From positions 1 to 64,000 of the forward strand of contig NZ_CP039964.1 in assembly GCF_005234135.1 (NCBI RefSeq): 64,000 bases of DNA. The letters are read 5' to 3'. The stretch is from Pseudorhodobacter turbinis (GTDB taxonomy: Bacteria; Pseudomonadota; Alphaproteobacteria; Rhodobacterales; Rhodobacteraceae). The position numbers were made by a program, and so were the translations under genes. Below, one piece after another: positions 7,212-47,460 of the stretch; the stretch's first letter is position 1, and each line of letters opens with the position of its first letter. The notes under the pieces were generated by a model. That model saw only the letters and a list, made by a program, of their open reading frames with translations. It was not told the DNA's origin and ran no database searches.

Positions 7212-7451
7212 TTACGGCATCTCATTGATTTTCAAAGCCAGAACAAGACGGTTGCGGCGAGGTCGATGGCAGAGAGAAAGACTTTCGGACATCTGTCGTC
7301 GCGTGTTGCGACCCGTCGCCAGTCCTTCAAACGCCCGAACATGATTTCGATGTGTTACCTGGCAGCGCATGTTTACATGCGCGAGAAGGCGATTGCGACG
7401 TTTGTAACGGCGCTTGCGATACTGGCGGCGGCGATGTGTGCCATGCTTGCG
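7212..7451 (-). pseudogene. Hybrid IS5-family transposase remnant, C-terminal part
   Basis: Read on the minus strand, ARKHGTHRRRQYRK is followed by RRYKRRNR, then, after a short inserted element, IEIMFGRLKDWRRVATRDDR, CPKVFLSAI and a stop at the usual family end. The first part matches the IS5 type at 46989 (ARKHGTHRRRQYRKVHLAMD), while the second matches the other IS5 type seen at 48120-48305 (DKRRYRRRNRIEWMFGRLKDW), so the fragment is a recombinant of two IS5 subgroups. It lacks the N-terminus and is joined head to head with another IS5 remnant at 7451/7452. Confidence 0.8.
7353..7389 (-). repeat. Short hairpin element, copy D (37 bp)
   Basis: It is inserted in the minus-strand IS5 remnant between codons for NR and IE. 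In the minus orientation it begins CCTTCTCG, has a central stem GCGCATGT/ACATGCGC with loop AA, and ends TGCCAGGTAACA. The uninterrupted site is visible at 48174-48195. Removing 37 bp restores the transposase frame (shift of one base). Confidence 0.75.
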
Positions 7452-7462
7452 CGCAAGCATGG
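7441..7462. repeat. 22-bp perfect palindrome at an IS head-to-head junction
   Basis: CCATGCTTGC followed by GCGCAAGCATGG is a perfect inverted repeat. Each arm encodes the conserved RKHG of an IS5 transposase, one reading left and one right, so this is the joint between two inverted IS5 fragments and not a regulatory site. Confidence 0.8.
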
Positions 7463-8020
7463 CGGCTCCAAACGGCGGGTCTGGCGCAAGATCCATCTCG
7501 GAATTGATGAGAAAACACTGGAGATCCGCGCTGTCGAGGTCACCGGGAACCACATCGGTGATGCGCCGGTCCTGCCCGATCTGCTCAGCCAGATCCCGGC
7601 AAGCGAGGAGATCGGCAGCGTCACCGCTGACGGCGCCTATGATACCCGCAAGTGCCATGATGCGATTGCTAACTGCGGAGCGCATGCCGTCATCCCACCC
7701 CGCAAAAACGCTAAGCCGTGGAAGACCGTCACTGCGGGTGCCGTAGCCAGAAACGAGGCCCTTCGAGCCTCGAAATACCTCGGTCGCGCGCTCTGGCGAA
7801 ACTGGAGTGGATACCACCGCCGAAGCCGCGTCGAGACAAACCCTTTCGGGCTCATGCTTCGCATAACCCTGCCGGGCAGCGGATGCACTGTGTTAAACTT
7901 CTGGGGCAGCGCCTCATGGCGCGGGACTTTGACCGACAGGTCGCGGAGGTCCAGATCCGCATCGCCGTCATGAACCGCTACACCGCACTTGGCATACCGG
8001 TCACCGAAGCCGTGGCATGA
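7452..8020 (+). pseudogene. IS5-family transposase remnant, C-terminal two thirds
   Basis: RKHGGSKRRVWRKIHLGID, VTADGAYDTRKCHDAI, PPRKNAKPWK and YHRRSRVET are standard IS5-group DDE transposase blocks, including the second Asp (DGAYD) and the region of the catalytic Glu (VET). The frame then breaks at a 41-bp insertion and resumes one frame over as MHCVKLLGQRLMARDFD to a normal C-terminus near ALGIPVTE. The N-terminal third, including the first catalytic Asp, is missing because the fragment starts at the inverted junction. Apart from the insertion, the C-terminal part is open. Confidence 0.88.
7841..7881 (+). repeat. Short hairpin element, copy A (41 bp)
   Basis: It is inserted between GAGACAAA and GATGCACTG of an IS5 transposase. 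It begins CCCTTTCGGG, carries the small stem ATGC/GCAT with loop TTC, and ends CCCTGCCGGGCAGCG. Removing it joins RVET to KMHCVKLLGQ in frame, the expected family sequence. Confidence 0.8.
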
Positions 8021-8060
8021 GTCCGTCCGGGGAAAGGGGAGCGCGATCTTGATATCGCTC

Positions 8061-8258
8061 AGTTGCTGTCGAAGAAAAATCCACAGAGGCCGACGCTATT
8101 ATCGAAATCACCGAAGCGATTGCGCAAGGCGTGGTTGATCCTGCCGCGGAAGACGCGGAGGCCAAGATCAGCCCCGTGAAAGGGCGCGAGAAAGATGAAG
8201 CGTTCTTGCGGGCGCAGCGACTTGCAACGCGCTCTCCCAAAGGTGCAAGAGTCTGAAC
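8061..8258 (+). other. Unidentified open coding-like fragment between IS remnants
   Basis: The frame reads VEEKSTEADAIIEI, AQGVVDPAAEDAEAK, VKGREKDEAFLRAQRL and ends at a stop inside the adjoining IS3 fragment. It has no start codon or ribosome site and I do not recognise a family. Its even, acidic/basic composition looks like a truncated real protein trapped between the IS5 end and the IS3 end. It may be the tail of a chromosomal or phage gene broken by insertion. Confidence 0.35.
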
Positions 8259-8430
8259 AACATCACTCCCGCTGAGGTCTACTTGGGGCGCGACAACGTC
8301 AAGGGGAAAGATCAAAAAAACAGACAATCCGGCAACGCCGCTTGCAACATCAAAAACAAGCAGCATAATCAATCACACAAACGAGCCAGAGCCTCCAATG
8401 CGCAAGCGGCTCTGACGTCCAAATTTATAT
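8242..8430 (+). pseudogene. IS3-family orfB C-terminal remnant
   Basis: SLNNITPAEVYLGR is the canonical C-terminal block of IS3-type integrase-fold transposases; a frameshift later the sequence continues KKQTIRQRRLQHQKQAA, matching the terminal basic tail. Everything N-terminal, including the DDE residues, is absent. The end near 8430 abuts the stop of the next gene and may contain the right IS end. Confidence 0.7.
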
Positions 8431-8452
8431 GACGACGGACACGGTCCGGCCC

Positions 8453-9994
8453 CTAAAGAACGACCTCAATCAAGTATGGCCCCGGCTCCTTCACCACGGC
8501 ACGGATGAGTTTATAAAGCTCGGCTGGATCCGTCACCCTGCGCCCCGGAACGCCCATGCCGCGGGCCAATGAGACGAAGTCTAGTTCGGGGCGGTTAAGT
8601 TCCAGCATGTTCAGCGCATCCGGCCCGGGGTTCGCGCCCACCTTGAACAGTTCTTGCTTGAGGATCTGATATCCGCGATTGGCAAAGATAATCGTCGTGA
8701 CATTCAGCTCCTCGCGTGCCTGAGTCCAGAGTGCCTGTAGCGTGTACATGGCTGAGCCGTCCGCCTGAAGCCCGATGACAGGGCGGTCGGGGCAGGCGAC
8801 GGCGGCACCTGTGGCCATCGGGATTCCGATGCCAATTGCCCCGCCCGTCAGCGAAAGCCATGACATTGGCGGCGCGCCGGTGGAAAGTGCAGGAACATTG
8901 GTGGCGCTTGTCAGACGCTCATCCACCACAATAGCCCCCTCGGGCAGGGCGGCTGCGATGGCGGCAGACAGGGCGTCATTCGTCATTGCGCCCGCAGAGG
9001 GTGGAGGGCAGGGAGCAGCGGTGCGTGCGGGAGCCGGAGGGGCGCCAAGCGCGTCAACAAGTGCCTCTATCGCGGTGCGCCCGTCCTGATCGAAATCGGC
9101 AAGTGCGATTACTTCGCATTCTTCCGGCAGCAACAGGCTAGGGCGCTCGGGATAGGCAAAAAAGGCGACAGGGGGCAGTGCCTCGATCAAGACCGCGCGA
9201 CGGAACGGACGCAAAGCGGCCAGTGCATCATCTACTGGGTAAGGGATGCGCGGAATTTCAAACCGGCCAGCGCCGCGTTCCAGCCGCCGGATAGGGCCGG
9301 ATCCCATAATGCTTGTGCCCGTCGCCGCAGCCAGATCGGCCAGACCTGCGATGCTGTCGGGGGATTCCAGCACGGTACCGCCACACAAAATAACCGTATC
9401 GGGGCCAAGCGCCGTTGCCGCTTTCCGCAACAGATCGGAGTCGATATCGCGGGGGGCGCGGGTTTTTGCGCGTTCGGGGGGTTCGATCGTGGCACCCTCT
9501 TCCCAACCGATGTCTGCCGGGACAATCAGGGTGGCGATCTGGCCTGGGTGGCCCCAAGCGGCAGCAAGCGCATCCATCGCGTCGCCTGTAATCGACTGGG
9601 TGGAATGCACAGTCCGTACCCAGTCGGAAAAAACCGCTGCTGTGGCGGGAACATCCGCTGTCAGCGGTGCCTCATACCGCAGATGCCGGCGGGCGTGATC
9701 TCCGACAAGGTTCAACATCGGCGTGCGCGCCTTGCGGGCGTTGTGCAGGTTTGCCCCGGCATTGGCCAACCCCGGTGCCAGATGCAGCAAGGTCACGGCC
9801 GGCTTTTCAGCCATCCGCGCATAGCCATCTGCCGCGCCAGTCACCACACCTTCAAACAGGCCAAGTATGCAGCGCATCAATCGGGTGCGGTCCAGCGCGT
9901 CAACAAATTGCATCTCGGAGGTGCCGGGGTTGGCAAAGCAAACCTCTACACCCGCCTGATGCAAACTCCTCAGTAGGCTCTCTGCGCCGTTCAT
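8453..9994 (-). CDS. Acetolactate-synthase-like TPP-dependent enzyme (copy 1)
   Basis: A 513-residue TPP enzyme of the IlvB/benzoylformate-decarboxylase superfamily. The N-terminal PYR domain has the catalytic Glu in GLFEGVVTGAADGYAR (near residue 48), a central domain spans roughly 180-310, and the C-terminal PP domain has the Mg/TPP motif LQADGSAMYTLQ through TTIIFANRGY. ADGS replaces the common GDGS. Such proteins are annotated as acetolactate synthase large subunits, but no regulatory small subunit is nearby and the context (Dpp-type transporter, amidohydrolases) argues for 2-oxo-acid decarboxylation or carboligation in catabolism. It is the last gene of the minus-strand operon. A close paralogue lies at 54297-55859 in a second, similarly built cluster. 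Confidence 0.85.
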   Translation of the reverse strand: MNGAESLLRSLHQAGVEVCFANPGTSEMQFVDALDRTRLMRCILGLFEGVVTGAADGYARMAEKPAVTLLHLAPGLANAGANLHNARKARTPMLNLVGDHARRHLRYEAPLTADVPATAAVFSDWVRTVHSTQSITGDAMDALAAAWGHPGQIATLIVPADIGWEEGATIEPPERAKTRAPRDIDSDLLRKAATALGPDTVILCGGTVLESPDSIAGLADLAAATGTSIMGSGPIRRLERGAGRFEIPRIPYPVDDALAALRPFRRAVLIEALPPVAFFAYPERPSLLLPEECEVIALADFDQDGRTAIEALVDALGAPPAPARTAAPCPPPSAGAMTNDALSAAIAAALPEGAIVVDERLTSATNVPALSTGAPPMSWLSLTGGAIGIGIPMATGAAVACPDRPVIGLQADGSAMYTLQALWTQAREELNVTTIIFANRGYQILKQELFKVGANPGPDALNMLELNRPELDFVSLARGMGVPGRRVTDPAELYKLIRAVVKEPGPYLIEVVL

Positions 9995-10012
9995 GTCCGT
10001 TCCCTGCCCATG

Positions 10013-11092
10013 CTAAATCCTAACCTTGGATGCGGTTGTCGTTGCTGTATGCGCTCTTTGTAGCACTGCCAATCGCTCGGCGAGTTTTGCGCGCTCTACC
10101 GGCGCTGCATCGCGCTCGTGCAATTGATTGTCGGCGTGATGACAGGCAACACGGGTTTCGCCGATCTGCCGCTGCTCGGGGCGGTCAACGCGGCATATGT
10201 CGGTCGCCATCGGGCAACGGACGTGGAATGCACAGCCGGAGGGCGGCGAAAGCGCGCTCGGCATGTCACCGCGCAGCCCCAGTTTTTCGCCACGCAGGCT
10301 TGGGTCGGGCAGGGGCACGGCCTTGATCAGTGAGCGTGTGTAGGGATGTAGTGGCCGGGAAAAGAGCGTTTCCGCCGAGGCTTCCTCGACGAAACGCCCC
10401 AGATACATCACGGCGACGCGGTCTGCGATGTGGCGCACCACTGAAAGATCGTGGCTGATGAACACATAGGCCAGCCCGAATTCGTGCTTCAGGTCCTGCA
10501 ACAGATTGACGATCTGCGCTTGCAAGGACACGTCCAGCGCCGAAACGGGTTCGTCACAGACGATAATCCCGGGTCGGGTGGCCAAGGCGCGGGCAATGCC
10601 AACACGCTGGCGCTGGCCACCGGAAAACTCATGCGGATACCGTTCGGCGTGATAGCTGGACAGGCCTGAGAGGGACAGCACTTCGTCCACCTGCCGGTCA
10701 AGCGTTTCTGGCGTGGCAAGCCCGTGCAGCAGCAAAGGTTCGGCCAGTGTCTCACGTACGGTCATCCGCGGGTTAAGCGAGCCGTAGGGGTCTTGGAAAA
10801 TAATCTGCATGCGCCGCCGCGCTTCGCGCAACTCGGTCTTTGACATTGCGGTGACGTCTTGCCCGTCAAGCAGAACCCGGCCTGCGGTTGGCTCCATCAG
10901 GCGCATGATCGTGCGGCCCAATGTTGACTTCCCGCAACCGGATTCCCCTACAATTGCCAGCGTTTCTGCACGGTTCACCGTAAAGCTGATGTTGCTGACG
11001 GCCTGTATGTTGCCCACCAGTCGCCGCAATGCGCCGCGCCTGACCGGAAAGTGTTTCGACAGGTTTTCGACCTGCAACACAGGATTTGTCAT
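10013..11092 (-). CDS. Dpp/Opp-type ABC transporter ATPase (DppF-like)
   Basis: A 359-residue ABC ATPase. Walker [13 protein letters not shown], the Q-loop IIFQDPYGSLNPRM, signature FSGGQRQR, Walker B IIVCDEPVSALDVS and ISHDLSVVRHIAD are all present. The C-terminal oligopeptide-transporter domain (HPYTRSLIKAVP, then a Cys-rich CAFHVRCPMATDIC) is the FeS-type tail seen in DppD/DppF proteins. Its start overlaps the end of the preceding DppD-like gene by 4 bp, so the two subunits are translationally coupled. The substrate is unknown; neighbouring amidohydrolases suggest N-acyl or cyclic amide compounds. Confidence 0.9.
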   Translation of the reverse strand: MTNPVLQVENLSKHFPVRRGALRRLVGNIQAVSNISFTVNRAETLAIVGESGCGKSTLGRTIMRLMEPTAGRVLLDGQDVTAMSKTELREARRRMQIIFQDPYGSLNPRMTVRETLAEPLLLHGLATPETLDRQVDEVLSLSGLSSYHAERYPHEFSGGQRQRVGIARALATRPGIIVCDEPVSALDVSLQAQIVNLLQDLKHEFGLAYVFISHDLSVVRHIADRVAVMYLGRFVEEASAETLFSRPLHPYTRSLIKAVPLPDPSLRGEKLGLRGDMPSALSPPSGCAFHVRCPMATDICRVDRPEQRQIGETRVACHHADNQLHERDAAPVERAKLAERLAVLQRAHTATTTASKVRI

Positions 11093-12078
11093 CTGCTGAT
11101 CTCCTGCTTTTCAATGGGGGCATACCAGCAGGCCGCACGGTGGTTTGCGGCATCACCGACCTGTTCCAACGTGGGTTCTACCTCGTGGCATTGCGGGGTA
11201 GCGAGCGGGCAGCGGGGGGCAAAACGGCAGCCCTTTATGGTTGCCCAAGGCGGGGGCAGCGTGCCTGCAATGGTTGCCAGCTTTTCCGATTTATCGTCAA
11301 TGCGCGGAACGGCCGCCATCAGGCCGATGGTATAGGGATGCTGTGGGTTTTGAAACAGCTCGGCCGTGGGCGCGCTTTCCACCACGGCGCCCGCATACAT
11401 CACCACCACATCGTCGCAGGTCTGCGCAACAACCCCCAAATCATGGGTGACAAGAACGATCCCCATGCCTGTGCGCGCTTGCAGGTCGCGCATCAATTCA
11501 AGGATCTGCGCCTGAATTGTTACGTCCAATGCGGTTGTCGGCTCATCCGCGATCAGCAGATCGGGGTCGTTTGCCAGCGCCATAGCAATCATCACCCGCT
11601 GTCGTTGCCCGCCGGACAGTTGATGTGGATAATCATCCACCCGTTTGGCGGGGGAGGGCAGGCCGACAAGATCCATCAATTCCACCGCGCGGGCGCGCAG
11701 ATCACCCTTGTAGCCATGGGTGCGCAGGCTCTCGATAATCTGGGCGCCGCAGGTATAGACGGGATTGAGGCTGGTCATCGGTTCTTGAAAGATCATCCCG
11801 ATCCGCCCGCCCCGTAGGGCGCGCATTTCCTGAGGGGAAAGGTCAAGCAGGCTTTGGCCGTCAAAGGTGATACGCCCGCCATAGATTTCGCCGGGCGGCT
11901 GGGGGACGAGCCCCATGATAGCCAGCATTGCAATGGATTTCCCGCAGCCGGATTCCCCGACCACGCCCAGGGTCTTGCCCCGTTCTACGGTGAAGCTTGC
12001 GCCATCGACCGCGCGCAACCGGCGACCTCCGGTTCGAAATCCGACCTTCAGCTCTTGGACCGTCAGCAGCGCTGTCAT
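11089..12078 (-). CDS. Dpp/Opp-type ABC transporter ATPase (DppD-like)
   Basis: A 329-residue ABC ATPase with Walker [11 protein letters not shown] (about residues 41-50), Q-loop [14 protein letters not shown], signature LSGGQRQR, Walker [15 protein letters not shown] and [13 protein letters not shown]. The C-terminal oligopeptide_HPY extension includes [12 protein letters not shown] and [14 protein letters not shown]. It overlaps the amidohydrolase stop by 4 bp and the DppF-like start by 4 bp. It would energise the DppB/DppC-like permeases encoded at 15253-17081. Confidence 0.9.
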
Positions 12079-13517
12079 CCCTCAACCTCATAGACCAGCG
12101 GAGATGCTTCCAAATGTGTGCGACCGGCAAAATCCAGTTTGGCAAACCGCTGCTCTGCGCGGCGCTGTGCCTCTTGCAAGCGTGCGGTTGCGTCATCCAG
12201 ATCAAAGGCTGCGACCTTGCCGTCTGCCACGACTTGCGTGCCATCGACAAAGACGTCGCGCACCGCCCGCTCTGCCGCGACATAGACCAGCGAGCGGATC
12301 GGATCGCGCAGCGGGCGCATCGCGGGGTGGGTGATGTCGGCGATAAACAGATCTGCCTTCGCACCCTTTGCCAACCGCCCGATATCATCACGCCCCAGAA
12401 TCGCCGCCCCGCCCACGGTGGCCGCGTCAAATATGTGATGGGTGCGCAAGTCATAGGGATTGCCCGACATCAGGCGGGAATTGTAAAGCGCATTGCGCAT
12501 CTCTTCTAGCATGTTGTGGGGGTAGGTGTCGGTTCCGATACCCACCGGGATGCCTGCGCGGATATAGGCCCCAACGCTTTGCATGGCGATGCCGCGGCGC
12601 TGGAAAACAGTGGGGCAATGCGCCACCGCCGCGCCACTGTCGCGCAGCAAAGCGAAATCATCCGCCTCGGGCCAGTGAACCGATGAGTGGCTGTTGAGGA
12701 AGATGCCATGGCCGATGATGGCCCCTTTGCTCAGCACACCCAGATCATGCAACCACTCAATAGGCGTGCGGCCATGACGGCGGGTGATCTCGTGGAACTC
12801 TACCACCGATTGGGCGGCGTGAATTTGAAAGGGGATGCCGCGCGACTTTGCCTCGGCAAAGCTGTCGCGGATAAGATCGGCGGTGCAGGTGTCGATTTGG
12901 GAGGGTGCGATCATCCCGCTCATCCGGCCTGAGGCATGGGCGTTGGCGGCGTCAATCGTGGCAAGGGCTTGGTCCATCGCGGCCTTACCCGCCGCCTCGT
13001 CCCATTCATATTCAACCACATGGCCGTTTTTCGTGAACCAGCGCGCCGAGCGGTACATCGGGGCCAGAACCGCGCGGATACCCGACTGCGCGAGCAGATC
13101 AATCCAGTTGTCATAGGGCACGGACAGGTCGGTCAGCGTCGTCACACCCGACAGCAGCAATTCTGACAGCGCGACTTGTGTGCAGGCTGTGCGCCCTTCG
13201 GGATCGGCACCAAACAGCGGCATAAATTCGTAAAGTGAGCTCATATACAGGCGAGGGCTGCCGAGCTCATCCAGAAAACCCTTGTTCATCGGTTCTGAAA
13301 GGGGATGGGAATGGATATTGACCAAGCCCGGCGACACCAGCTTGCCACGCCCGTCAATTTCGCGCGTGACCTCGCTATCAAAGCGGCCGCCAACGCTGAC
13401 GATCTTATCACCTGAAAAGGCGACATCGGCATCTTGCAAATAATGGTGGCGTTGCTGTTCTTCATCCCAGGCGATGATCCAGCTGGCGTTGCGGATAACG
13501 GTTGTTCCGGTTGTCAT
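12075..13517 (-). CDS. Metal-dependent amidohydrolase, TrzA/AtzB/SsnA-like
   Basis: A 480-residue amidohydrolase-superfamily protein. Metal ligands are visible in order: NIHSHP (HxH), FQIHAAQ, GHGIFLN and GTDTYPHN. The subgroup hydrolyses C-N or C-Cl bonds on heterocycles and amino-purine/guanidine-like compounds (chlorohydrolases, guanine and S-adenosylhomocysteine deaminases). The ATG at 13517 has a strong GAGGGGACG upstream; the longer frame to 13556 does not. Together with the YtcJ-like amidohydrolase at the operon head it brackets the transporter genes, implying that the imported molecule is cleaved at amide or amidine bonds. The exact substrate is not deducible. Confidence 0.82.
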   Translation of the reverse strand: MTTGTTVIRNASWIIAWDEEQQRHHYLQDADVAFSGDKIVSVGGRFDSEVTREIDGRGKLVSPGLVNIHSHPLSEPMNKGFLDELGSPRLYMSSLYEFMPLFGADPEGRTACTQVALSELLLSGVTTLTDLSVPYDNWIDLLAQSGIRAVLAPMYRSARWFTKNGHVVEYEWDEAAGKAAMDQALATIDAANAHASGRMSGMIAPSQIDTCTADLIRDSFAEAKSRGIPFQIHAAQSVVEFHEITRRHGRTPIEWLHDLGVLSKGAIIGHGIFLNSHSSVHWPEADDFALLRDSGAAVAHCPTVFQRRGIAMQSVGAYIRAGIPVGIGTDTYPHNMLEEMRNALYNSRLMSGNPYDLRTHHIFDAATVGGAAILGRDDIGRLAKGAKADLFIADITHPAMRPLRDPIRSLVYVAAERAVRDVFVDGTQVVADGKVAAFDLDDATARLQEAQRRAEQRFAKLDFAGRTHLEASPLVYEVEG

Positions 13518-13540
13518 AACGTCCCCTCGCTTTCTGGTGA

Positions 13541-13568
13541 TGGCGGGCCAACTCATGTCGGCCCGCCA
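13541..13568 (-). other. Stem-loop downstream of the binding-protein gene (second of two)
   Basis: TGGCGGGCC and GGCCCGCCA form a perfect 9-bp stem around a 10-nt loop, between the binding-protein stop and the amidohydrolase start. No U-run follows, so it more likely stabilises the upstream mRNA end or attenuates than terminates. Confidence 0.65.
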
Positions 13569-13575
13569 GTTTGTG

Positions 13576-13602
13576 CCTGCCCCGATACGGGTTCGGGGCA
13601 GG
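13576..13602 (-). other. Stem-loop directly after the binding-protein stop (first of two)
   Basis: CCTGCCCCG and CGGGGCAGG form a perfect 9-bp stem with a 9-nt loop, about 5 nt past the stop codon at 13607. Together with the next hairpin it probably sets the higher expression usual for a periplasmic binding protein relative to downstream genes (inference). Confidence 0.65.
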
Positions 13603-13606
13603 GGCT

Positions 13607-15202: not shown

Positions 15203-15252
15203 CTTTTTATCTCTCCCATTTTTGTTTCAGCACAAATTTTCCCTGCGGTTTG

Positions 15253-17081: not shown

Positions 17082-17084
17082 GGT

Positions 17085-18716: not shown

Positions 18717-18731
18717 TTGGTTCTTCCCCAC

Positions 18732-20790: not shown

Positions 20791-20887
20791 CCGATCCGCG
20801 AGATGCCATGGAGAACACTAATCGAAGCAAATAACAGGCCATTGACACTTAAGCACGTGCGTATATCTGAGATAGAAATTATCACCG

Positions 20888-21304
20888 ATGGCGATCGTTG
20901 TCGGCGCTGGTCTGCGGCGATAAGCTGGCGCCGCAAACCAAAGACCAAAGTTCAGGTGCATTCCCCCTCTCGGGCATCGCTGCGCAATACCCTGCCGGAC
21001 AGCGGACCAGGGCTCACAATTTACCAGCTACGAGTGGCAAGAGTTCCTCGAACAGCACAATCTGACGCAAAGCATGAGCCGTCGCGGGAACTGTTGGGAT
21101 AATGCAGTGGCGGAAAGCTTCTTCAACCTGCTCAAACGCGAACGCATCCGACGCAGAAAGTATAAAACGCGCGCAGAAGCCCGTCAGGACGTGTTCGACT
21201 ACATCGAGTTTTTCTACAACCCACAGCGCAAACACGTTAGGAACGCGATGCTGTAACCGATCGACTTCGAACAGCAGCAGAAACTGAAGCTGCAAGGTGT
21301 CTAG
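20888..21304 (+). pseudogene. IS3-family orfB remnant
   Basis: WRRKPKTKVQVHS, then after a 40-bp insertion DQGSQFTSYEWQEFLEQHNL, SRRGNCWDNAVAESFFNLLK and YIEFFYNPQRKH are the integrase-core blocks of IS3 transposases; the second Asp (HSDQGSQF) and the catalytic Glu (NAVAESFF) are recognisable. It lacks the first third and carries a further in-frame TAA at NAML before PIDFEQQQ. It is not functional. Confidence 0.88.
20965..21004 (+). repeat. Short hairpin element, copy B (40 bp)
   Basis: It is inserted between CATTCC and GACCAG of the IS3 transposase, exactly at the conserved VHS-DQGSQF. It begins CCCTCTCGGGC, has an imperfect central stem ATCGC/GCAAT with loop TGC, and ends CCCTGCCGGACAGCG. 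Precise removal restores the frame. Confidence 0.82.
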
Positions 21305-33809: not shown

Positions 33810-33810
33810 T

Positions 33811-35831: not shown

Positions 35832-35834
35832 GGC

Positions 35835-36992: not shown

Positions 36993-37029
36993 TACTTGGG
37001 GCTCTCCTTAGTTGTTCAGCGGTCCGCGT

Positions 37030-38312: not shown

Positions 38313-39082
38313 ACCTCGCCCCCCGACAGGGCCAGCGCGTGGCCATTGACGCTGATTGCGGACTCGCTGCACAGCCACAGGGCGGCGCCCGCAACTTCGG
38401 ATGTTTGCACAAAGCGTTTTTGCGGATTTCCGGTCAACAGCGAGGCGCGCGCCTCATCCTCGGACATACCGGTGCTGGCGATAATTTTCTCTATGGATTT
38501 CTCTAGCAAGGGTGTTTCGATAAATCCGGGGCAAATCGCGTTGACGGTGATGTTTTTCGGTCCAAGCTCCAACGCCAGCGCGCGGGTCAGCCCGACAACG
38601 CCATGTTTTGCCGCGCAATAGTGGCTGACATAGGAATAGCCCTTCATGCCGGCGGTTGAGGCCACGGCAATCATGCGCCCGCTGCGCCGTTCCAACATGT
38701 CGGGCAAGGTGGCCTGCCACAGGTTGAACACCCCCGCCAGATTGACATCGAGCGAGGATTGAAACGCCGCCAGCGTCATTTTGGCAAACGGCACACTGTC
38801 GGCAGAACCTGCATTGGCGATGGCGATGCTGACGGGCCCATGGGTGGCGCGGGCACGGTCAAGGGCGGCATCCAGCGATGCGCGGTCGGTCACATCCGCC
38901 GTTAGCGCCAGCGCGCCGGTCTGGTCGGCAACCGCTTGCAACGGCTCTGCCCGACGACCAAGGACCGTCACACGCGCGCCAAGTTCGGCAAAGGCCACGG
39001 CGATTTCTGCGCCCACACCAGTGCCGCCACCCGTGATCACCACATGATCCATTTGCATGGGCTGACTCGGTGCGGTTGTCAT
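38309..39082 (-). CDS. Short-chain dehydrogenase/reductase
   Basis: A 257-residue classical [21 protein letters not shown] is the TGxxxGxG cofactor site, IANAGSA the NAG motif, [14 protein letters not shown] the YxxxK catalytic pair preceded by Ser, and PGFIETP the C-terminal substrate-loop start. It probably oxidises or reduces a hydroxyacyl-CoA or alicyclic hydroxyl in the 2-aminobenzoyl-CoA route. It overlaps both neighbours by 4 bp. Confidence 0.88.
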
Positions 39083-41367
39083 ACCTTTTCCACTTCGGTT
39101 TCCTTGTCGGCAAGGCGCCAGCTTTGGTCGCGGCCTGCCTCATAGGGTAGGGGCCATACCATCTCGCGGTCGCCGATTGCGGTGGCCGCATGCAGCGTCC
39201 AATAGGGATCGGCCAAATGCGGACGGGCCAGACAGACCAGATCGGCGCGCCCGGCCATCAGGATCGAATTGACGTGATCGGCCTCGTAAATATTGCCGAC
39301 TGCCATGGTGGCCACGCCCGCCTCGTTGCGGATCCTGTCCGAGAACGGGGTCTGAAACATGCGCCCGTAAACGGGATGGCCTTGGGTGGAGGTTTGGCCG
39401 GCAGAGACGTCGATAATATCGGCTCCCGCCTCGGAGAAGGCGCGTGCGATCAACACCGCTTCTTCGGGGGTTACCCCATCGGGACCCGCCCAGTCATTGG
39501 CCGAGATCCGCACCGACATCGGCTTGGCCGCAGGCCATACCGCCCGCATCGCGCGGAAAACCTCTAACGGATAGCGCATCCGGTTTTCAAGACTGCCACC
39601 GTATTCATCGTCGCGCGTGTTGGACAGCGGCGAGATGAATGAGGACACCAGATAGCCATGCGCCGCATGCAGCTCGATCATATCAAATCCCGCACGTTCG
39701 GCCATTTCAGCGGCTGCGACAAAATCGGCCTTTACGGCATCCATATCATCGCGTGTCATAGCACGCGGGACGGCGTTGCCTTTGGCCCATGCGATTGCAG
39801 AGGCAGACAGCAAATCCCAGTTGCCTGAGGCCAGCGGCTTATCCATGCCATCCCACCCCAGATTGGTAGAGCCTTTGCGCCCCGCATGGCCGATCTGGCA
39901 GCAAATCTTGGCGCGTGTTTCGGCATGCACAAACCGTGTAAGTCGCGCCCATTCCGCCTCATGTTGGGGGCTATAAAGCCCGGGACAGCCCGGTGTGATC
40001 CGCCCGTCCGCGCTAACGCAGGTCATCTCGGTATAGACCAGACCGGCGCCGCCTTTGGCACGTTCTGCATAGTGGACAAAATGCCAATCGGTGGGGTTGC
40101 CGTTCACCGCCTTATATTGCGCCATAGGCGAGACAACGATACGGTTGTCCAGATCCATCTCGCGCAGCTTGAAGGGGGCGAACATCGGCGCGCGCACCTT
40201 GGTTTCCGTGCTTCCCGAACGGATCTGGAACCATTTCTCCGCGCTTTCCAGCCACTCGGGGTCGCGCAGGCGCAGGTTTTCATGGCTGATCCGCTGACTG
40301 CGTGTCAGCAGCGAGTAATTGAACTGAACCGGGTCCAGATGCAAATAGCGGTGTATATCCTCAAACCATTCTAAGGAGTTGCGCGCCGCTGATTGCAGAC
40401 GCAAAACCTGAATGCGGCGCTCATCTTCGTAAAGCGCAAATGCCTCGGCGAGGGTGTCTTTTTGGGTCACATATTCGGCCAGCGCAATGGCGCTTTCCAA
40501 CGCCAGCTTGCTTCCCGACCCGATAGAGAAATGCGCCGAGGCAGAGGCATCGCCCATCAGGACGATATTCCCATGGCTCCATTTTTCACACAATACGCGC
40601 GGGAAATTGATCCAGGCGGAACCGCGGATGTGGTGCGCATTGGTCATCAACGCATGGCCGCCGAGATGGTTTTTAAAGATCTCCTCGCAGGTGGCAATGC
40701 TGTCTTGCTGGGACATCTCGCCAAAGCCGTAGGCGTCAAAGGTTGCCTGATCACATTCGATAATGAAGGTCGATGTGGTGTCATCAAAGCTGTAGGCATG
40801 CGCCCAGACCCAGCCTTTGTCGGTCTCTTCGAAGATAAAGGTAAAGGCGTCATCGAATTTCTGATGCGTGCCCAGCCAGACAAATTTGCAAGTGCGCAAC
40901 TCGATATTAGGCTTGAAAATATCGGCGAATTCAGTCCGCGTGGCAGAGTTAAGACCATCGGAGGCGACAACCAGATCAAAACCCTTGGCAAAGGCGCCGA
41001 TGTCGGTGACGTTGTGTTCAAACTCCAGCACGACGCCCAGATCGACTGCGCGGGCCTGCAAATCCAGTAGCAATTGCTTACGCCCGATGCCGCAGAACCC
41101 GTGCCCCGTAGAAAGCTGTTTGGTGCCACGGTAATGCACCGCGATATCATCCCAATAGGCGAAATTGCTTTCGATCGCTTTGGCGCTGATCGGATCATTC
41201 GCGGCCAGATTACCCAGCGTCTCATCCGATAGAACCACCCCCCAGCCAAAGGTATCGTCGGGTTTGTTGCGCTCGAATACGGTGATATCCACATCAGGCT
41301 GACGCAGTTTCATGGAAATTGCAAAGTATAGACCGGCTGGCCCACCCCCTAGACAAGCAATACGCAT
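39079..41367 (-). CDS. 2-aminobenzoyl-CoA monooxygenase/reductase (bifunctional flavoprotein)
   Basis: A 762-residue fusion. The N-terminal half (about 1-380) is a class A flavin monooxygenase: [19 protein letters not shown] for FAD, the DG-type block [15 protein letters not shown], and [19 protein letters not shown] as the GD motif. The C-terminal half (about 395-750) is an old-yellow-enzyme-type FMN reductase: [26 protein letters not shown] and [21 protein letters not shown]. This architecture is known for 2-aminobenzoyl-CoA monooxygenase/reductase and salicylyl-CoA 5-hydroxylase, which hydroxylate and then dearomatise the ring without ring-cleaving dioxygenases. The start at MRIACLGGG is chosen; the frame to 41517 is not family-like. 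It is the first gene of the minus-strand operon. Confidence 0.9.
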
Positions 41368-41416
41368 CGGGACTCTCCTGATCAAATATAGGAAAGAGTG
41401 TATCGGGCGACTTAAA

Positions 41417-41434
41417 TATTTCAAGCCTAAAGTT
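41417..41434. promoter_or_regulatory. Degenerate copy of the 22473 palindrome before the 2-aminobenzoyl-CoA operon
   Basis: TATTTCAAGC matches the left arm of the operator at 22473 exactly; the right arm is weaker (14 of 18 positions overall). It lies 50 bp upstream of the monooxygenase start codon, a normal operator position. Confidence 0.5.
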
Positions 41435-41639
41435 TTAAAAGTGAAGGGTCGGGTCTGGGTCGGAAGATCGTATACGATTTTTTTAAATAAAGTCAAAACC
41501 TTAGAATGGTGGGACAATCAGATTGTCCCGGCCTTGCCAAGGTGTTGGCTTGAGGATGTCATGTCTCAGGTTGAGCAAGTCTTGGCTTCATTGAGAGGGC
41601 GTATTCAGCCCATAGGTTGAATGCATCGCTCCGGACGTG
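41435..41639. other. Upstream gap of the monooxygenase operon; nothing recognised
   Basis: Short plus-strand frames here are not family-like. An AT-rich part near 41440-41510 is plausible promoter sequence for the minus-strand operon. Confidence 0.35.
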
Positions 41640-41830
41640 CCGATAGGCTTTGGCATTGCGCCCCAATTTTGTTGACCAAAGCCACGAGCTTCGCGGCTGA
41701 CGATGACGCCTCGCTCAGCAAGAAAGCCCTAGACATCGGCGATGCTAAGCGCAAAGCGATGATCAGCTTGGACCGCATCGGTGACGATCAGGCGGGGAAA
41801 ACGAATAGCTCTCACGCACGGCATTGACGG
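41640..41830 (-). pseudogene. IS6-family transposase N-terminal remnant
   Basis: On the minus strand IRFPRLIVTDAVQADHRFALSIADV, a TAG, GFLAERGVIVSREA and, one frame over, LWSTKLGRNAKAYR. These match the N-terminal blocks of IS6/IS26-type transposases (RFPREII..AVWLY.RF.LS.RDVE.LLAERG..VS.E....W..KFG). The catalytic core is absent. It lies between the monooxygenase and thiolase promoters. Confidence 0.6.
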
Positions 41831-41902
41831 CAGTATCGTCATGCCTCAACCTACCAAGTCAAAAACCACAAACAACTTGGCAATGCCCTCCGGAGCTATA
41901 AT

Positions 41903-43099
41903 ATGACCGATGTTTATATCTGTGACTATATCCGCACGCCGATTGGTCGTTTCGGCGGCAGCCTCGCGTCAGTACGCGCCGATGATCTGGGTGCGATCCC
42001 GATCAAGGCGCTTATCGCGCGCAATCTGAACGTAGATTGGGCAGCGGTTGACGAGGTGATTTTCGGCTGCGCCAACCAAGCGGGCGAAGATAACCGCAAC
42101 ATCGCCCGGATGTCGGCACTGCTTGCGGGGTTACCCGCGGAGGTGCCCGGCACCACGATGAACCGCCTTTGCGGATCGGGGATGGATGCGGTGATTACAG
42201 CTGCGCGGACAATTAAAGCAGGCGAAGCGGAGATCATCATCGCAGGCGGAGTTGAGAGCATGTCGCGCGCGCCGTTCGTGATGCCCAAAGCCGAAAGTGC
42301 GTATTCCCGCGCCTCGGAAATTCATGATACCACCATCGGTTGGCGGTTCATCAACCCGCTGATGAAAGGGCAATACGGTGTAGATTCGATGCCGGAAACC
42401 GCCGAAAACGTCGCTGAGGATTTCGGAATCTCGCGCGCCGACCAAGACATCTTTGCGCTGCGGTCGCAGGAAAAAGCCGCCCTCGCCCAGAGCAACGGCA
42501 GGCTTGCCCAAGAAATCACGCCCGTCGAGATAGCGCAACGCAAGGGCGACCCCAAGGTCATCAGAGCCGATGAGCATCCCCGCGCCACCACGCTTGAAAC
42601 GCTCGCTGGTTTGCGCGCCCCCTTCCGCGCGGGCGGGTCGGTGACGGCTGGCAACGCGTCGGGGGTCAATGACGGCGCGGCGGCACTGATCATCGCCTCG
42701 GCGGCGGCGGCAAAAAAATATGGTCTTACCCCGATAGCCCGTATTTTGGGCGGCGCGACCGCGGGTGTGGCGCCTCGGATCATGGGCATTGGCCCTATTT
42801 CGGCATCGAACAAGCTGATGGCGCGGCTTGGCCTGCGCCAGATCGATTTCTCGGTAATTGAATTGAACGAGGCGTTTGCTTCGCAGGGGCTTGCGACGCT
42901 ACGCGCTCTCGGGATCGTGGATGGCGATCCTCGTGTAAATCCCAACGGCGGCGCGATTGCGCTGGGTCATCCGCTGGGCATGTCGGGCGCACGAATCACC
43001 GGATCGGCAGCACTTGAGCTGCAGGCCAGGCAAAAGTCGCTTTCGACGATGTGCATTGGCGTTGGCCAAGGCATCGCCATTGCCCTTGAAGGCTGCTGA
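41903..43099 (+). CDS. Acetyl-CoA acetyltransferase / beta-ketoadipyl-CoA thiolase-like
   Basis: A 398-residue thiolase. The acylated Cys90 lies in MNRLCGSGMDAV, GNASGVNDGAAALI and NPNGGAIALGHPLGMSGAR (catalytic His) are conserved, and MCIGVGQGIAIALE holds the second Cys. The sequence resembles PcaF/PaaJ-type thiolases that cleave 3-oxoadipyl-CoA or similar dicarboxylyl-CoA to acetyl-CoA and succinyl-CoA, which fits as the last step of the neighbouring CoA pathway. GGAG lies 7 nt before the ATG. It is transcribed away from the operon and separated from it by IS6 debris. Confidence 0.92.
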   Translation: MTDVYICDYIRTPIGRFGGSLASVRADDLGAIPIKALIARNLNVDWAAVDEVIFGCANQAGEDNRNIARMSALLAGLPAEVPGTTMNRLCGSGMDAVITAARTIKAGEAEIIIAGGVESMSRAPFVMPKAESAYSRASEIHDTTIGWRFINPLMKGQYGVDSMPETAENVAEDFGISRADQDIFALRSQEKAALAQSNGRLAQEITPVEIAQRKGDPKVIRADEHPRATTLETLAGLRAPFRAGGSVTAGNASGVNDGAAALIIASAAAAKKYGLTPIARILGGATAGVAPRIMGIGPISASNKLMARLGLRQIDFSVIELNEAFASQGLATLRALGIVDGDPRVNPNGGAIALGHPLGMSGARITGSAALELQARQKSLSTMCIGVGQGIAIALEGC

Positions 43100-43128
43100 T
43101 GGGCGGGGCAAGTCACCTCGACTAGGGA

Positions 43129-43641
43129 TCAGCCTCTGCACGAACCCGAGTTTCCAGCTTGGCTAACCCCAGCGGTTGCAAGCGCGGTCATCGTTCGATC
43201 CCCATCATAGGTGAGGTCTAGGCAAGTTTGCAAAACCGCGCCGTCTCCATCCTGATCGAGACGATTGGCGAATGCAACAAGACAGCCATAACCGGCAATC
43301 GCATAATGCACCATGCGCTGGTACTGCGTAACGATTACCGCATCACGGACCTTATCCGAGCCGAAGTCCGCGTCAAGCACGTGCGCTTTCGCCTCTGCGG
43401 CCAAACCCTGCATTCCTTTACAATGCTCGCCATCGGGCGATATTCCGTGTTGATTGCAGATTTCCGCAATTTTCTCCATCCCATCGTTGATGCCGTTGGC
43501 CCCCGCAATCAAAGCTTTTGACAGATCCTTGTCGTGCGCCGTACGCCCTAGCGCTGTGACGATATCGAGCGACTGTTTGTTGGCGCTCCACATGTCTTGA
43601 AGTTGGTCATGGTAAACGTCTTTGAGGGAGTTCATCGTCAT
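43129..43641 (-). CDS. DUF892 (YciE/YciF) ferritin-like stress protein
   Basis: A 170-residue helical protein: MNSLKDVYHDQLQDMWSANKQ, HGISPDGEHCKGMQGLAAEA and DAVIVTQYQRMVHYAIAGYG are the DUF892 blocks, with the Glu/His/Asp residues expected to line the di-metal site of a ferritin-like four-helix bundle. The family is linked to general stress. AGGAGG directly precedes the ATG at 43641. It converges on the thiolase gene, and no strong terminator is seen between them. Confidence 0.85.
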   Translation of the reverse strand: MTMNSLKDVYHDQLQDMWSANKQSLDIVTALGRTAHDKDLSKALIAGANGINDGMEKIAEICNQHGISPDGEHCKGMQGLAAEAKAHVLDADFGSDKVRDAVIVTQYQRMVHYAIAGYGCLVAFANRLDQDGDGAVLQTCLDLTYDGDRTMTALATAGVSQAGNSGSCRG

Positions 43642-43798
43642 ATTGGCCTCCTGCCGTTGATTTGATCTGTCCAGACAAACGCCCGACCACGTGTTACGTT
43701 CCAAGCAATCCTTCTGAATCGAAATGACCTCCTCCCCACGGTGGGTGGGAATAGGCTACATTTTCGCAATGGCCGAACCGCCGCAGAAAGGACAAGAC

Positions 43799-43870
43799 AT
43801 GGCAGATGTTAAAAATGCGAAAGATCCTGATCATGTCGACAAACGGGTTTGAGCAATCTGAGCTCTCAAG
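43799..43870 (+). pseudogene. PfpI/DJ-1-family protein, N-terminal remnant with frameshift
   Basis: The authentic start reads MADVKNAK and then, after one extra base, continues in the next frame as ILIMSTNGFEQSELS, the standard first strand and Glu-containing nucleophile-elbow partner of PfpI-type stress proteins. Homology stops abruptly after SELS, so the gene is both frameshifted and truncated. PfpI and DUF892 proteins are often in the same stress clusters. Confidence 0.72.
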
Positions 43871-44131
43871 GGGAAAGAGCGGGTTTTGTATTGAGGGTAT
43901 AAGAACCGTCCGGCGCAGAGCCACGACAGTTTGCAGATGCTTTCTCAGTGCATTAGCGCGGTCCTGCCAGACGCACATTAGCGATGTCATCGGCTGAACC
44001 TTCGTCATCCCGCTGAAAGTTTTAGCTACCGCGTCCCGCCTCACATGTTAATGTCGAGGCGGATCGCACCAGCTAAATCCTGCGGAATTACTTTTCGAAG
44101 CAGGGCTTTCTGACTTAACCATGAGGCCTTG
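43871..44131. other. Gap before the sensor kinase; no gene recognised
   Basis: It follows the truncated PfpI fragment. Small open frames on both strands (for example minus-strand MTSLMCVWQDRANALRK) do not resemble known proteins. It should contain the kinase promoter. Confidence 0.35.
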
Positions 44132-46354
44132 ATGCTGAGTAACGACATAGACCTTAAAACCCTGATTGGAGCTTTCGACTGGTCCAGCACCTCGCTTGGA
44201 CCAAAGACGGATTGGCCTGCGCATATTCGCAGTGCGGTCGCGCTGATCCTTCACGCCAAGATACCCATGGTCACGCTCTGGGGTCAGGAGGGCATCATGA
44301 TCTATAATGATGCCTATGCCGAGTTTGCATTGAAAAGGCACCCTGCGTCGCTTGGGGCCCCTGTGCGCGAAGCTTGGCCCGAAGTTGCAGAGTTTAATGA
44401 CGGCATTCTCAAGACCGTTTTGGCTGGTGGCTCGACGAGTTTTAAGGATCAGGAGTTTTCGCTTCTGCGCAAGGGCATTGCAGAGCAACTGTGGCTTGAT
44501 CTGGACTATTCGCCCGTCATCGACGATGCGGGCAGCCCTGTCGGGGTCTTTGCGATCGTGACTGAAACAACCGCTAAGGTGAAAGCCGAACGTCGACTGG
44601 CGGCCGAGCGCGACCGTTTGCGCCAGATGTTCGAGCAAGCACCGGGTTTTATTGCCGTGCTCGATGGGGCAAATCACCGTTTCGAAATCACAAATGCCGC
44701 TTACCGACAGTTGATCGGCCATCGAGACGTTGTCGGCTTGCCTGTCCGCAACGCTTTGCCCGAGCTTGTAGGGCAGGGGTTCTACGAGTTGCTGGATAAC
44801 GTTTATAACACAGGAGAGTCCTTTATCGGCTCTGCAATGCCTGTGCTTTTGAAGCGGTCTTCCGACGCCACGGCCGTCGAGCGGTTTGTTGATTTTATCT
44901 TCCAGCCAATGCGGGATGCTGATGGCTATGTCGGCGGTATTTTTGTGCAGGGCACTGATATCACTGAAAGAATTGCAACAGAACGCGCGTTGCAAGTCAG
45001 CGAGCGCCAGTTTCGCACCTTCGCCGAAGCGATGCCTAACCACGTCTGGTCTGCCGGACCGGATGGCCAACTTGATTGGTTTAACGACCGGGTCTATGAA
45101 TACAGCGGGACCGCGCGGGGTGATCTGGACCATGGCGCATGGGTCAGGCTCTTGCACCCTGAAGACGTTGCCGAAGCAGTCGAGGTCTGGGGCGAGGCCG
45201 TCGCAACCGGCGAGTCTTATGAGATCGAATTTCGCCTGCGCCGGGCCGACGGGACGTGGCGCTGGCATCTGTCGCGCGCCGAGATGTTGCGCGACGAAGA
45301 CGGCGAACCGCACCGCTGGGTCGGCACCAATACGGATATTGAGGACCAAAAGCGCGACCGCCAACAGCTGCAGGACAGCGAGCGGCGGCTGCGGTTGTCA
45401 CAGCAGGCGGCCGGCATCGCCTCGATCGAGATCGACTTGGCGACTGACTGCATCCTTGCCTCCGACAGTTTCTGGACAATGTTCGGGCTCGCCAATGAGG
45501 GACCTGTCTCGGCAAAGGACATTGAGGCGCTGGTCGTACCAGAGGATCGTCACTTGATATCGACCGCGCAGTCTCGCCTTACCGGAACGGCCGCGTTGGA
45601 CGCGACCTATCGGATCAAACGGGCTAGCACCGATGACATCCGCTGGATTGCGCGCCACATAGAAGTGCTGCGCGGCCAAGACGGTGCGCCCGCGAAGATC
45701 TATGGCGCATTGCGCGACGTGACCCATGAGAAACTTGCGGAAGAGCGCCAGATCATGCTGACACATGAACTAGAGCATCGCATCAAGAATATCTTGGCGA
45801 CCGTCTCGGCGATTGCTTCGCAGACTTTGCGCAACACCGATATCGAAACCGGACGCAATACATTGAGCGAACGCTTTCAAGCTTTGGGGAAAGCGCACTC
45901 ACTGCTTTCGAACACGCACTGGACGTCTGCGGTGCTCGCAGACGTGGTTCGCGTCGCCACCGTACCACTGCCCGTCGCCCGCATCGATCTTGCAGGACCC
46001 TTTGTGCAACTTGGGCCAAAGCAAGCATTGTCGCTGGCACTGGCTGTCAACGAGCTTGGGACGAACTCTTTGAAATACGGGGCGCTTTCGGTCCCCGAAG
46101 GTCGTGTCAATATCGCTTGGTCCAGATCTGTGTCCGGCGACGGCGAAGAGCAGTTGCGCTGGTCTTGGACAGAGTCAGGCGGCCCTGAGGTGACCGCGCC
46201 GACACGCCGAGGGTTTGGGCGTGTTTTGATCGAGCAAGTTCTAGCGGGCGATTTTAATGGCACTGTTCGGATCCAATTTGACACTTCGGGCGTTGAATGT
46301 GTATTGGAGGCGCCTATGCCCGACCTAACCTCAGACGAGCAGGACATAAAGTGA
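44132..46354 (+). CDS. HWE-family sensor histidine kinase with four PAS domains
   Basis: A 740-residue soluble kinase. Four PAS-like domains are read at roughly residues 1-150, 160-285, 295-415 (with the PAC block RRADGTWRWHLSRAEML) and 425-535. The HWE kinase core begins at LTHELEHRIKNILATVSAIA (phospho-acceptor His), followed by LALAVNELGTNSLKYGAL (N box) and LRWSWTESGGP, the WxE that names the family. HWE kinases in alphaproteobacteria often sense light, oxygen or stress. No Cys of a LOV motif (NCRFLQ) or phytochrome domain is seen, so the signal is unknown. It overlaps its response regulator by 4 bp (GTGA). Confidence 0.9.
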   Translation: MLSNDIDLKTLIGAFDWSSTSLGPKTDWPAHIRSAVALILHAKIPMVTLWGQEGIMIYNDAYAEFALKRHPASLGAPVREAWPEVAEFNDGILKTVLAGGSTSFKDQEFSLLRKGIAEQLWLDLDYSPVIDDAGSPVGVFAIVTETTAKVKAERRLAAERDRLRQMFEQAPGFIAVLDGANHRFEITNAAYRQLIGHRDVVGLPVRNALPELVGQGFYELLDNVYNTGESFIGSAMPVLLKRSSDATAVERFVDFIFQPMRDADGYVGGIFVQGTDITERIATERALQVSERQFRTFAEAMPNHVWSAGPDGQLDWFNDRVYEYSGTARGDLDHGAWVRLLHPEDVAEAVEVWGEAVATGESYEIEFRLRRADGTWRWHLSRAEMLRDEDGEPHRWVGTNTDIEDQKRDRQQLQDSERRLRLSQQAAGIASIEIDLATDCILASDSFWTMFGLANEGPVSAKDIEALVVPEDRHLISTAQSRLTGTAALDATYRIKRASTDDIRWIARHIEVLRGQDGAPAKIYGALRDVTHEKLAEERQIMLTHELEHRIKNILATVSAIASQTLRNTDIETGRNTLSERFQALGKAHSLLSNTHWTSAVLADVVRVATVPLPVARIDLAGPFVQLGPKQALSLALAVNELGTNSLKYGALSVPEGRVNIAWSRSVSGDGEEQLRWSWTESGGPEVTAPTRRGFGRVLIEQVLAGDFNGTVRIQFDTSGVECVLEAPMPDLTSDEQDIK

Positions 46355-46716
46355 CATTAACGCCTATCGTTTTGCTAGTAGAGGATGAAGCAATCATTCG
46401 AATTTCCACCGCTGATGTCCTTAGAGATCAGGGTTGGGAGGTGCGTGAGGCGGCAAACGCCGCCGACGCTTTGAAGATGCTGGAACAGGACGAGGACATA
46501 GAGCTGATTTTTACGGACATCGATATGCCTGGGGCGACCAATGGTCTTGGCCTTGCCCATGTTGTATCCGAACGTTGGCCAACCGTACAAATCGTTATCA
46601 CCTCCGGCATGAGCCAGCCATCAGCTAACGAACTTCCGCTTAGTGCCACCTTTGTCCCCAAGCCTTACATGGTCGAGGAGCTTGTCATCGACTTTCGCAC
46701 GCGCCTGATTGCATGA
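46351..46716 (+). CDS. Single-domain response regulator
   Basis: A 121-residue receiver domain: VLLVEDEAIIR (acidic pair), phospho-acceptor Asp56 in FTDIDMPG, ITSG switch residue and FVPKPY with the invariant Lys. No output domain is present. The GTG start overlaps the kinase stop, and AGGA lies upstream. Stand-alone receivers paired with HWE kinases typically relay phosphate or act as sinks in general-stress signalling. Confidence 0.92.
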   Translation: MTLTPIVLLVEDEAIIRISTADVLRDQGWEVREAANAADALKMLEQDEDIELIFTDIDMPGATNGLGLAHVVSERWPTVQIVITSGMSQPSANELPLSATFVPKPYMVEELVIDFRTRLIA

Positions 46717-46785
46717 AGATTAACTCTTGGGGGCGCCGCAGTTACGTCTCGGCCTTCCGTGCGTTTGCGCGACAGCATTAAAAAA

Positions 46786-46800
46786 GGCCTGTACAAGGCC
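46786..46800 (+). terminator. Probable terminator after the response regulator
   Basis: GGCCT-GTACA-AGGCC, preceded by a run of A and followed by ATTTTA. The stem is short and the U-run imperfect, so termination strength is uncertain. Confidence 0.5.
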
Positions 46801-47075
46801 ATTTTACCCCAACTACGCTCCACATCTACATCAGTTCATTCCTGCTGTTATATTATCCCGTACATAGCCTAAATACCACGTTGGGCCGCTAATTTTCAGG
46901 ACTTTTTAGGCTCGTGGAACCGGCGTTGTTGCAAAACTCTGACGGCAGGCGATTCACAAGGTGAAACAATGCGGTTAGACAGGCTTTCATGAGCAAGCCC
47001 CCAATCGCCCGCTATCGCACGACGAACTGGAAATCCTACAACGATGCGCTGAAGCGCCGTTGTTCACTGTTGATC

Positions 47076-47112
47076 CGTTGCCCGGCAACGCATGCCTGCA
47101 TGCGTGAGAGGG
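47076..47112 (-). repeat. Short hairpin element, copy E (37 bp)
   Basis: It is inserted between codons for LLI and WLDKD of the IS5 transposase, in the orientation opposite to the gene. In its own orientation it begins CCCTCTC, has a perfect 8-bp stem ACGCATGC/GCATGCGT with loop AG, and ends TTGCCGGGCAACG. Its removal restores the frame. Confidence 0.82.
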
Positions 47113-47419
47113 TGGTTGGACAAGGACATGATGTGGCTCGCCCCGAAGGCGGGCCGCCCTGGTCGCCCACCAGTGTTTTCTCTCGCCGCGATACAGTTCT
47201 GCCTCATGGTGAAGGTTCTGTTCAGTCTACCACTGCGGCAAGCGACTGGCATGGTGGGCAGCATCCTGCAGATGGCAGGCCTGGACTAGACGGTGCCCGA
47301 CTTTTCGACCCTGAGCCGGCGACAAAAGACCATCACGGTGCAAATGTCGAACCGCCGTGCGCCGGGGCCTATGAACCTGCTGGTGGACAGCACGGGGATC
47401 AAGTTCTTGGGCGATGGCG

Positions 47420-47460
47420 CCCTCTCGGGCGATTGCGATGCAATCCCCTGCCGGGTAACA
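47420..47460 (+). repeat. Short hairpin element, copy C (41 bp)
   Basis: It is inserted between GGCGATGGCG and AATGGCTTGC, splitting the GDGEWLARKHG codons. It begins CCCTCTCGGGC, has the perfect stem GATTGC/GCAATC with loop GAT, and ends CCCTGCCGGGTAACA. Its removal restores the frame. Confidence 0.85.

Follow-up and report, generated by a model that had tools for sequence, protein, structure and literature searches.

Very short mobile hairpins reside inside organellar genes as byp elements, and mini-elements derived from IS200/IS605 are recognised as hairpins and inserted without target duplication. The GTAG type of REP repeats, with its RAYT enzyme, comprises short repeated hairpins in both orientations, for which movement in trans via a folded strand has been proposed, and PMC3733652 describes REP repeats as mostly intergenic. 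The same paper presents the CGTC repeats as 20-40 bp palindromes of alphaproteobacteria without known transposase, with a tag varying to CCTC or TGTC, an almost invariable A/T first stem pair and a CCA-like tail, and reports just a fortuitous association with transposase genes. Rickettsia palindromic elements (RPEs) are described in PMC2229807 as palindromes of 105-146 bp fused in frame to conserved genes.

The DNA analysed here, hereafter the window, is the whole stretch of 64,000 nucleotides from Pseudorhodobacter turbinis (genome G000), in which the original prediction had placed five different short insertions, each splitting a transposase frame of an insertion sequence (IS). A pattern scan of the window retrieved exactly five stretches (37, 41, 40, 37 and 41 bp), and a covariance model trained on 12 copies, the window's five among them, returned the same five at E values of 1.6e-9 to 1.6e-6 and none further up to E=1; the five insertions are therefore real, with the coordinates and lengths given in Table 1. 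Further IS copies of the genome carry an identical or near-identical hairpin at all four of the window's IS5-type sites, and the hairpin at 20965 has one related copy there. No Rfam 15 match was obtained in the window at the gathering score, and assignment to a known RNA family was rejected on this ground. The stretch 47555-48433 is a single open frame in which an ABC-transporter-ATPase-like portion, so read by homology to other window frames, is fused with IS5- and IS110-like pieces, and which contains an IEIMFG site without hairpin at about 48183.

Table 1. Positions of the hairpins and of two of their host remnants in the window
Feature	Position	Strand	Context
Hairpin, 37 bp	7353..7389	-	Sense to minus-strand IS5-type transposase remnant; junction NR / IEIMFG
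Hairpin, 41 bp	7841..7881	+	Sense; IS5-type transposase remnant; junction RVET / KMHC, K codon shared
Hairpin, 40 bp	20965..21004	+	Sense; IS3-type transposase remnant; junction VHS / DQGSQF
Hairpin, 37 bp	47076..47112	-	Antisense to IS5-type transposase remnant; junction LLI / WLDKD
Hairpin, 41 bp	47420..47460	+	Sense; same IS5-type remnant as 47076..47112; junction GDG / EWLARKHG
IS5-type remnant with two hairpins	46922..47549	+	98.7-99.0% identity over 628 bp to three copies on contig C2
IS5-type remnant around the 7841 hairpin	7500..8044	+	77% identity to another copy with identical hairpin

The unit measures 37-45 bp, has nearly invariant arms and reads CCCTCTC, a variable stem-loop, TGCCGGG and then CARYG or TAACA, which gives a two-stem hairpin of the form CCC-TCTC-[variable stem-loop]-TGCC-GGG-CARYG. 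The 351 instances gathered reduce to 252 distinct contexts and, at a flank identity of 70%, to 182 sites. Compensatory changes preserve both stems, the inner one and the short outer one, and covariation is strong. The named set was fetched by a pattern through the constant arms, so that arm constancy is partly a selection effect; in its 103 distinct sequences, pairing holds in 94.1% of cells, changes occur on both sides in 12 of 13 pairs, and covariation scores 0.376, compared with 0.094 for shuffled and at most 0.043 for slid alignments; the first inner pair is G-C in 80 of the sequences and A-U in 8. The alignment was guided by the inner stem and not by the outer stem or the tail pair. Over 211 contexts, the first base covaries with the sixth-last (C-G 185, G-C 8) and the fifth-last with the last (C-G 190, T-A 13). 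There are 179 distinct inner stems, 150 of them at a single site. The tail is linked to the base ahead of the insertion: all ten TAACA tails are preceded by a G just outside the element, a base found there in 16 contexts overall, CARYG follows mostly C, T or A, and inner stems vary in both classes. At L083:1732-1768 the far arm reads GAGAGGG, CCCTCTC thus lying on both sides as in a head-to-head fusion.

The genome scan proposed with the original prediction yielded further copies rather than none. The 4.25 Mb genome of P. turbinis (4 contigs) holds at least 98 model matches at E<0.01 and at least 115 at E<=0.5, all on contigs C1 and C2, these counts being lower bounds obtained by scoring 150 of 3437 first-look candidates. 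Matches at E<=0.001 were found in 21 of 61 genomes surveyed under stricter filters than the P. turbinis scan, with at most 107 candidates scored per genome; they comprise all nine genomes of the genus (P. turbinis included), 12 of 28 from other genera of the family and none of 24 outside it. A gapped pattern searched in species genomes fetched at least 120 stretches, and the model confirmed 70 of the 80 tried, the ten failures all standing under names outside Rhodobacterales. Among the confirmed stretches, three bear non-Rhodobacterales names (Kitasatospora at E=0.0054, a Haliea MAG and a Niveispirillum MAG), three are labelled just “Alphaproteobacteria bacterium”, and the remaining names are those of organisms we take to be Rhodobacterales. 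One composite query matched 98 plasmid records, 93 of which are covered by the ten organism names listed, all Roseobacter-group genera, while a second query variant matched 10 records with Hoeflea and Pantoea among them. The same type of search with one composite query gave no match among INPHARED phage records, and a phage-borne element was rejected as a candidate on that result. The distribution is lineage-restricted, and we read the element as a Rhodobacterales family. A literature search, open-access and limited in extent, retrieved no description of it, and we regard the family as genuine and, within the searches made, undescribed.

Most hosts are transposase genes, which belong to many IS families. 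Pfam matches of the host frames (rve, DDE_Tnp_1, DDE_Tnp_IS240, Transposase_mut, DUF772, IstB_IS21 and HTH_Tnp_1) led us to recognise IS3 (rve), IS5 (DDE_Tnp_1), IS6 (DDE_Tnp_IS240), IS66, IS91, IS110, IS256 (Transposase_mut) and IS1182 (DUF772); in three batches of ten host proteins, 4, 1 and 5 gave no Pfam match. A transposase homologue lies within 30 bp of 60 of the 86 named sites and of 23 of 400 random positions in the same stretches, and within 450 bp of 72 of the 86 and of 60 of the 400; the named sites were fetched by sequence pattern alone, and the contrast with random positions is overstated since the transposase panel was drawn from frames matching element flanks and then Pfam-checked, though every match is still a transposase. 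In P. turbinis, where sites were gathered around model hits and not IS hits, save for the first loci, 44 of 61 sites lie within 30 bp of a homologue and 56 within 450 bp; for the sites of its relatives these numbers are 17 and 29 of 34. The three sets omit one of the 182 sites. A first panel, by which 67 of the 86 named sites adjoined a transposase, was contaminated by an ABC-transporter/IS fused frame and was replaced; the 59:49 orientation count and the frame, dN/dS and flank-tract figures given below rest on this older panel or on panel-independent groupings. A few contexts lie outside transposase genes or are unassigned, e.g. L126 (two elements between other genes), L102 and L246, and some leftover contexts read, by eye only, as IS3 helper genes. 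With 182 distinct sites sampled, covarying stems and a general association with transposases, the earlier reading of a family of different hairpins, each splitting a transposase frame, is supported.

Insertion is precise and without target duplication where it was checked closely. Using as queries the contexts with 40 bp on both sides, the joined flanks align across the junction to an insert-free sequence in 172 of 252 contexts, some of these alignments being weak, with about 66% identity at the lowest, and one or more false (for L253:2563, part of an element lies in the subject). The existence of relatives without the insert goes against the possibility, raised with the original prediction, that intact, active members of these IS families carry the same bases at the same sites. 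At the cleanest case, IS91 site A, the gap is 0 in eight hairpin-free copies (seven of the genus and L189) and 41 in three hairpin-bearing copies, with no target duplication, in line with the first impression that none was obvious; this also separates the element from a target-duplicating MITE. The net gain at IS91 site B is 40 or 41, one C-run base being uncertain, the hairpin-free alleles at two IS5 sites are seamless, and at some sites next to a C-run the ends of the element can be placed only to within about one base. The target leans towards C|GAY, with C in 66% before the insertion and G in 77%, A in 54% and T or C in 82% after it (182 sites).

Both orientations occur: among the 108 of 182 sites with a joined reading across the junction, some of whose matches are frames themselves containing the element, 59 hairpins are sense and 49 antisense to the gene, and a second count over 98 sites gave 62 sense, 35 antisense and one mixed. 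The claim that the length is never a multiple of three holds for the window's five but not for the family, 38 of the 182 site representatives being divisible by three; insertion nevertheless usually breaks the frame. In the 137 contexts whose two sides are both assigned on a single strand, exact removal joins the frames in 78, above the one third expected (p 1e-8), and leaves them off by one or two in 59; 55 would be in frame with the element retained. A stop is present in 48 of 344 aligned flanks.

At 19 of 33 sites sampled more than once, a single position carries two or more stem types, a few of the 19 being doubtful under a crude rule by which any length difference makes a new type. In the trees built for one IS91 site and two IS5 sites, hairpin-free copies fall between copies that bear a hairpin, and a minimum of two gains or losses is required at supported branches; in the IS91 tree, L291 and L144 were counted as hairpin-free although their site A is unreadable. 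Repeated gain at a site is the simpler reading, repeated precise loss the alternative. L028, a hairpin-free IS5 copy, nests weakly inside the hairpin clade of the IEIMFG tree and is possibly a precise excision. The proposal that the window's hairpins are not one duplicated allele holds, with the nuance that a single hairpin is often common to several IS copies at one site, so the copies are not all independent insertions. Such shared hairpins show less divergence than the flanking DNA (means 0.029 vs 0.20) in 24 of 25 groups, which were picked for a hairpin identity of at least 88%, and this low divergence suggests retention, conversion or recurrent insertion. Flank identity near shared hairpins is 0.83-0.84 within 20 bp and 0.72-0.75 beyond 60 bp, against 0.74-0.78 and 0.70-0.71 in control pairs with different hairpins. 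Broad gene-conversion tracts were rejected, the rise near shared hairpins being slight; the L220/L251 pair looks like a short conversion tract.

Several interrupted copies have multiplied. A hairpin-bearing IS256 occurs in two copies of 1208 bp at 100% identity, an IS91 with hairpins in two copies of 1743 bp at unrelated places and 99.94% identity, and an IS5 with hairpins in three copies at 99-100%, one over 979 of 1171 bp. The nearest P. turbinis relatives of this amplified IS5 (67%, two copies) each hold an in-frame 39-bp element; a hairpin-free IS91 relative exists there in three copies at 75%, and no hairpin-free IS256 relative was shown in this comparison. In the amplified IS256 copy, a further degenerate hairpin, absent from the model output, was seen by eye (L219:2188-2419). 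Close interrupted copies are under relaxed selection: in a set of 42 non-independent pairs, the 13 close ones (pS<0.3) have dN/dS of 0.24-1.30 with a median of 0.65, and among the other 29, 26 range from 0.03 to 0.38 and three are saturated. Low values are confined to distant pairs and can therefore predate insertion. Hairpins aside, the IS91 frames of G000 and G002 read open (save that a C-run base is missing from one G000 copy, L226) and have a mutual dN/dS of 0.03, and their hairpin sites look separately gained or repeatedly lost. The three-hairpin IS5 copy also has a stop, and the IS256 copy has a frameshift by eye. The relaxed dN/dS, the stops and frameshifts and the occurrence of both orientations together favour an inactivating insertion with later mobilisation in trans, and the hairpin probably inactivates its host transposase.

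The mobilising enzyme was sought among known candidates. The Y1/RAYT transposase (PF01797) gave no match in P. turbinis and is absent from five of the seven genomes with at least 11 hairpins, one or more being found in G006 (weak) and G015; RAYT/IS200-type mobilisation was rejected because no match was found in P. turbinis, a result that classical REP mobilisation does not fit. Reverse transcriptase (PF00078) occurs in 22 of 61 genomes, P. turbinis included, and was discarded as the mover because it was not found in the hairpin-rich G006, G007, G008 and G010. An origin from IS91 ends was likewise discarded, the ends of two IS91 copies being unlike the element by eye.

We favour, with a probability of roughly 55%, the view that these hairpins form a family of mobile mini-elements in Rhodobacterales, non-autonomous and recognised by their structure, which are moved in trans and partly prefer transposase genes. 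The folded single strand would be the substrate of a trans-acting enzyme with a logic like that of IS200/IS605 or REP elements, even though no Y1 enzyme was found in P. turbinis. This enzyme would place the hairpin without target duplication, the insertion would knock out the host transposase, and the interrupted IS could later be mobilised in trans. The least certain step is that the excess in transposase genes may reflect, at least partly, a true preference beyond tolerance. A stronger version, in which a system targets frame-breaking hairpins to transposase genes of many unrelated IS families, as a hyperparasite or a host silencing device with an enzyme unlike the Y1 of REP elements, is tentative and in our view rather doubtful. 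Tolerance by itself, i.e. hairpins inserting everywhere, purged from useful DNA and surviving and being copied in dead IS, we consider unlikely: many hosts do carry other lesions (the flanks with a stop and the 59 contexts out of frame after exact removal), close interrupted pairs evolve under relaxed selection, some elements are intergenic, and the multiplied interrupted copies fit tolerance as well as mobilisation in trans, but intergenic DNA, partly dispensable too, holds few elements, with 72 of the 86 pattern-fetched sites within 450 bp of transposase sequence.

Still less probable is a byp-like behaviour, in which translation would pass over the hairpin, or the hairpin would be excised from RNA or DNA, and the interrupted transposase would stay functional. 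The multiplied IS256, IS91 and IS5 copies speak in its favour, as do the otherwise open IS91 frames of G000 and G002 with their low mutual dN/dS and the low divergence of shared hairpins in 24 of the 25 groups picked for at least 88% hairpin identity. It is opposed by the two orientations, by the median of 0.65 in the 13 close pairs, low values occurring just in distant pairs where they can predate insertion, by the separate gains or repeated losses suggested for the IS91 sites, and by the stop in the three-hairpin IS5 copy and the frameshift seen by eye in the IS256 copy. That the hairpins are an unusual subfamily of CGTC-tagged REP repeats appears very improbable. Size, hairpin form and alphaproteobacterial hosts are similar, neither has a known transposase, and PMC3733652 allows the tag to vary to CCTC or TGTC; CCTC does occur inside CCCTCTC, yet the four bases beside the inner stem are TCTC. 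The A/T stem start and CCA-like tail described in that paper contrast with a G-C first inner pair in 80 of 103 sequences and a CARYG or TAACA tail, and the mostly intergenic location of REPs and the merely fortuitous association of CGTC repeats with transposases contrast with transposase genes as the main hosts.

Returning to the mobile mini-element reading, the family differs in at least one defining feature from each system tested. It shares with the GTAG REP/RAYT system short repeated hairpins in both orientations and, as proposed for that system in PMC3733652, possible movement in trans via a folded strand, but its consensus arms, CCCTCTC and TGCCGGG with CARYG or TAACA, lack the GTAG tag and its Y1 enzyme was not found in P. 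turbinis; for both REP superfamilies a mostly intergenic location is described in that paper, whereas 60 of the 86 pattern-fetched sites adjoin transposase sequence here. RPEs are also palindromes inside genes of alphaproteobacteria, from which the present elements are set apart by their 37-45 bp, their mostly out-of-frame position and their transposase hosts (compared with PMC2229807). The byp and mitochondrial hairpins resemble them as very short mobile hairpins but are organellar, and bypass is unsupported here. Mini-elements derived from IS200/IS605 differ in that the present element is a single hairpin with a weak C|GAY target and no Y1 enzyme found in P. turbinis. Short mobile palindromes as such are already known, and the novelty lies in the main hosts, the architecture and the lineage.

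If the preference is real, this would be a family of short palindromic repeats defined by its host genes, acting as a parasite of transposons or as a brake on them. The family is in addition a natural experiment for studying how hairpins some 40 bp long can move with no target duplication, a question open for REP-like and mitochondrial hairpins, and this movement can be traced through gains that can be counted, precisely defined empty sites and stems that covary. For annotation, many seemingly dead IS copies in these genomes hold the same kind of insertion.

In-frame cases of 39 bp also exist. Plasmid stretches of Leisingera methylohalidivorans (L211), Loktanella salsilacus (L212) and Sulfitobacter indolifex (L213) carry matches to the 39-bp variant within apparently intact transposases, which the annotation of the three plasmids assigns to the IS5 or IS256 family, and some elements may therefore be translated as part of the host protein.
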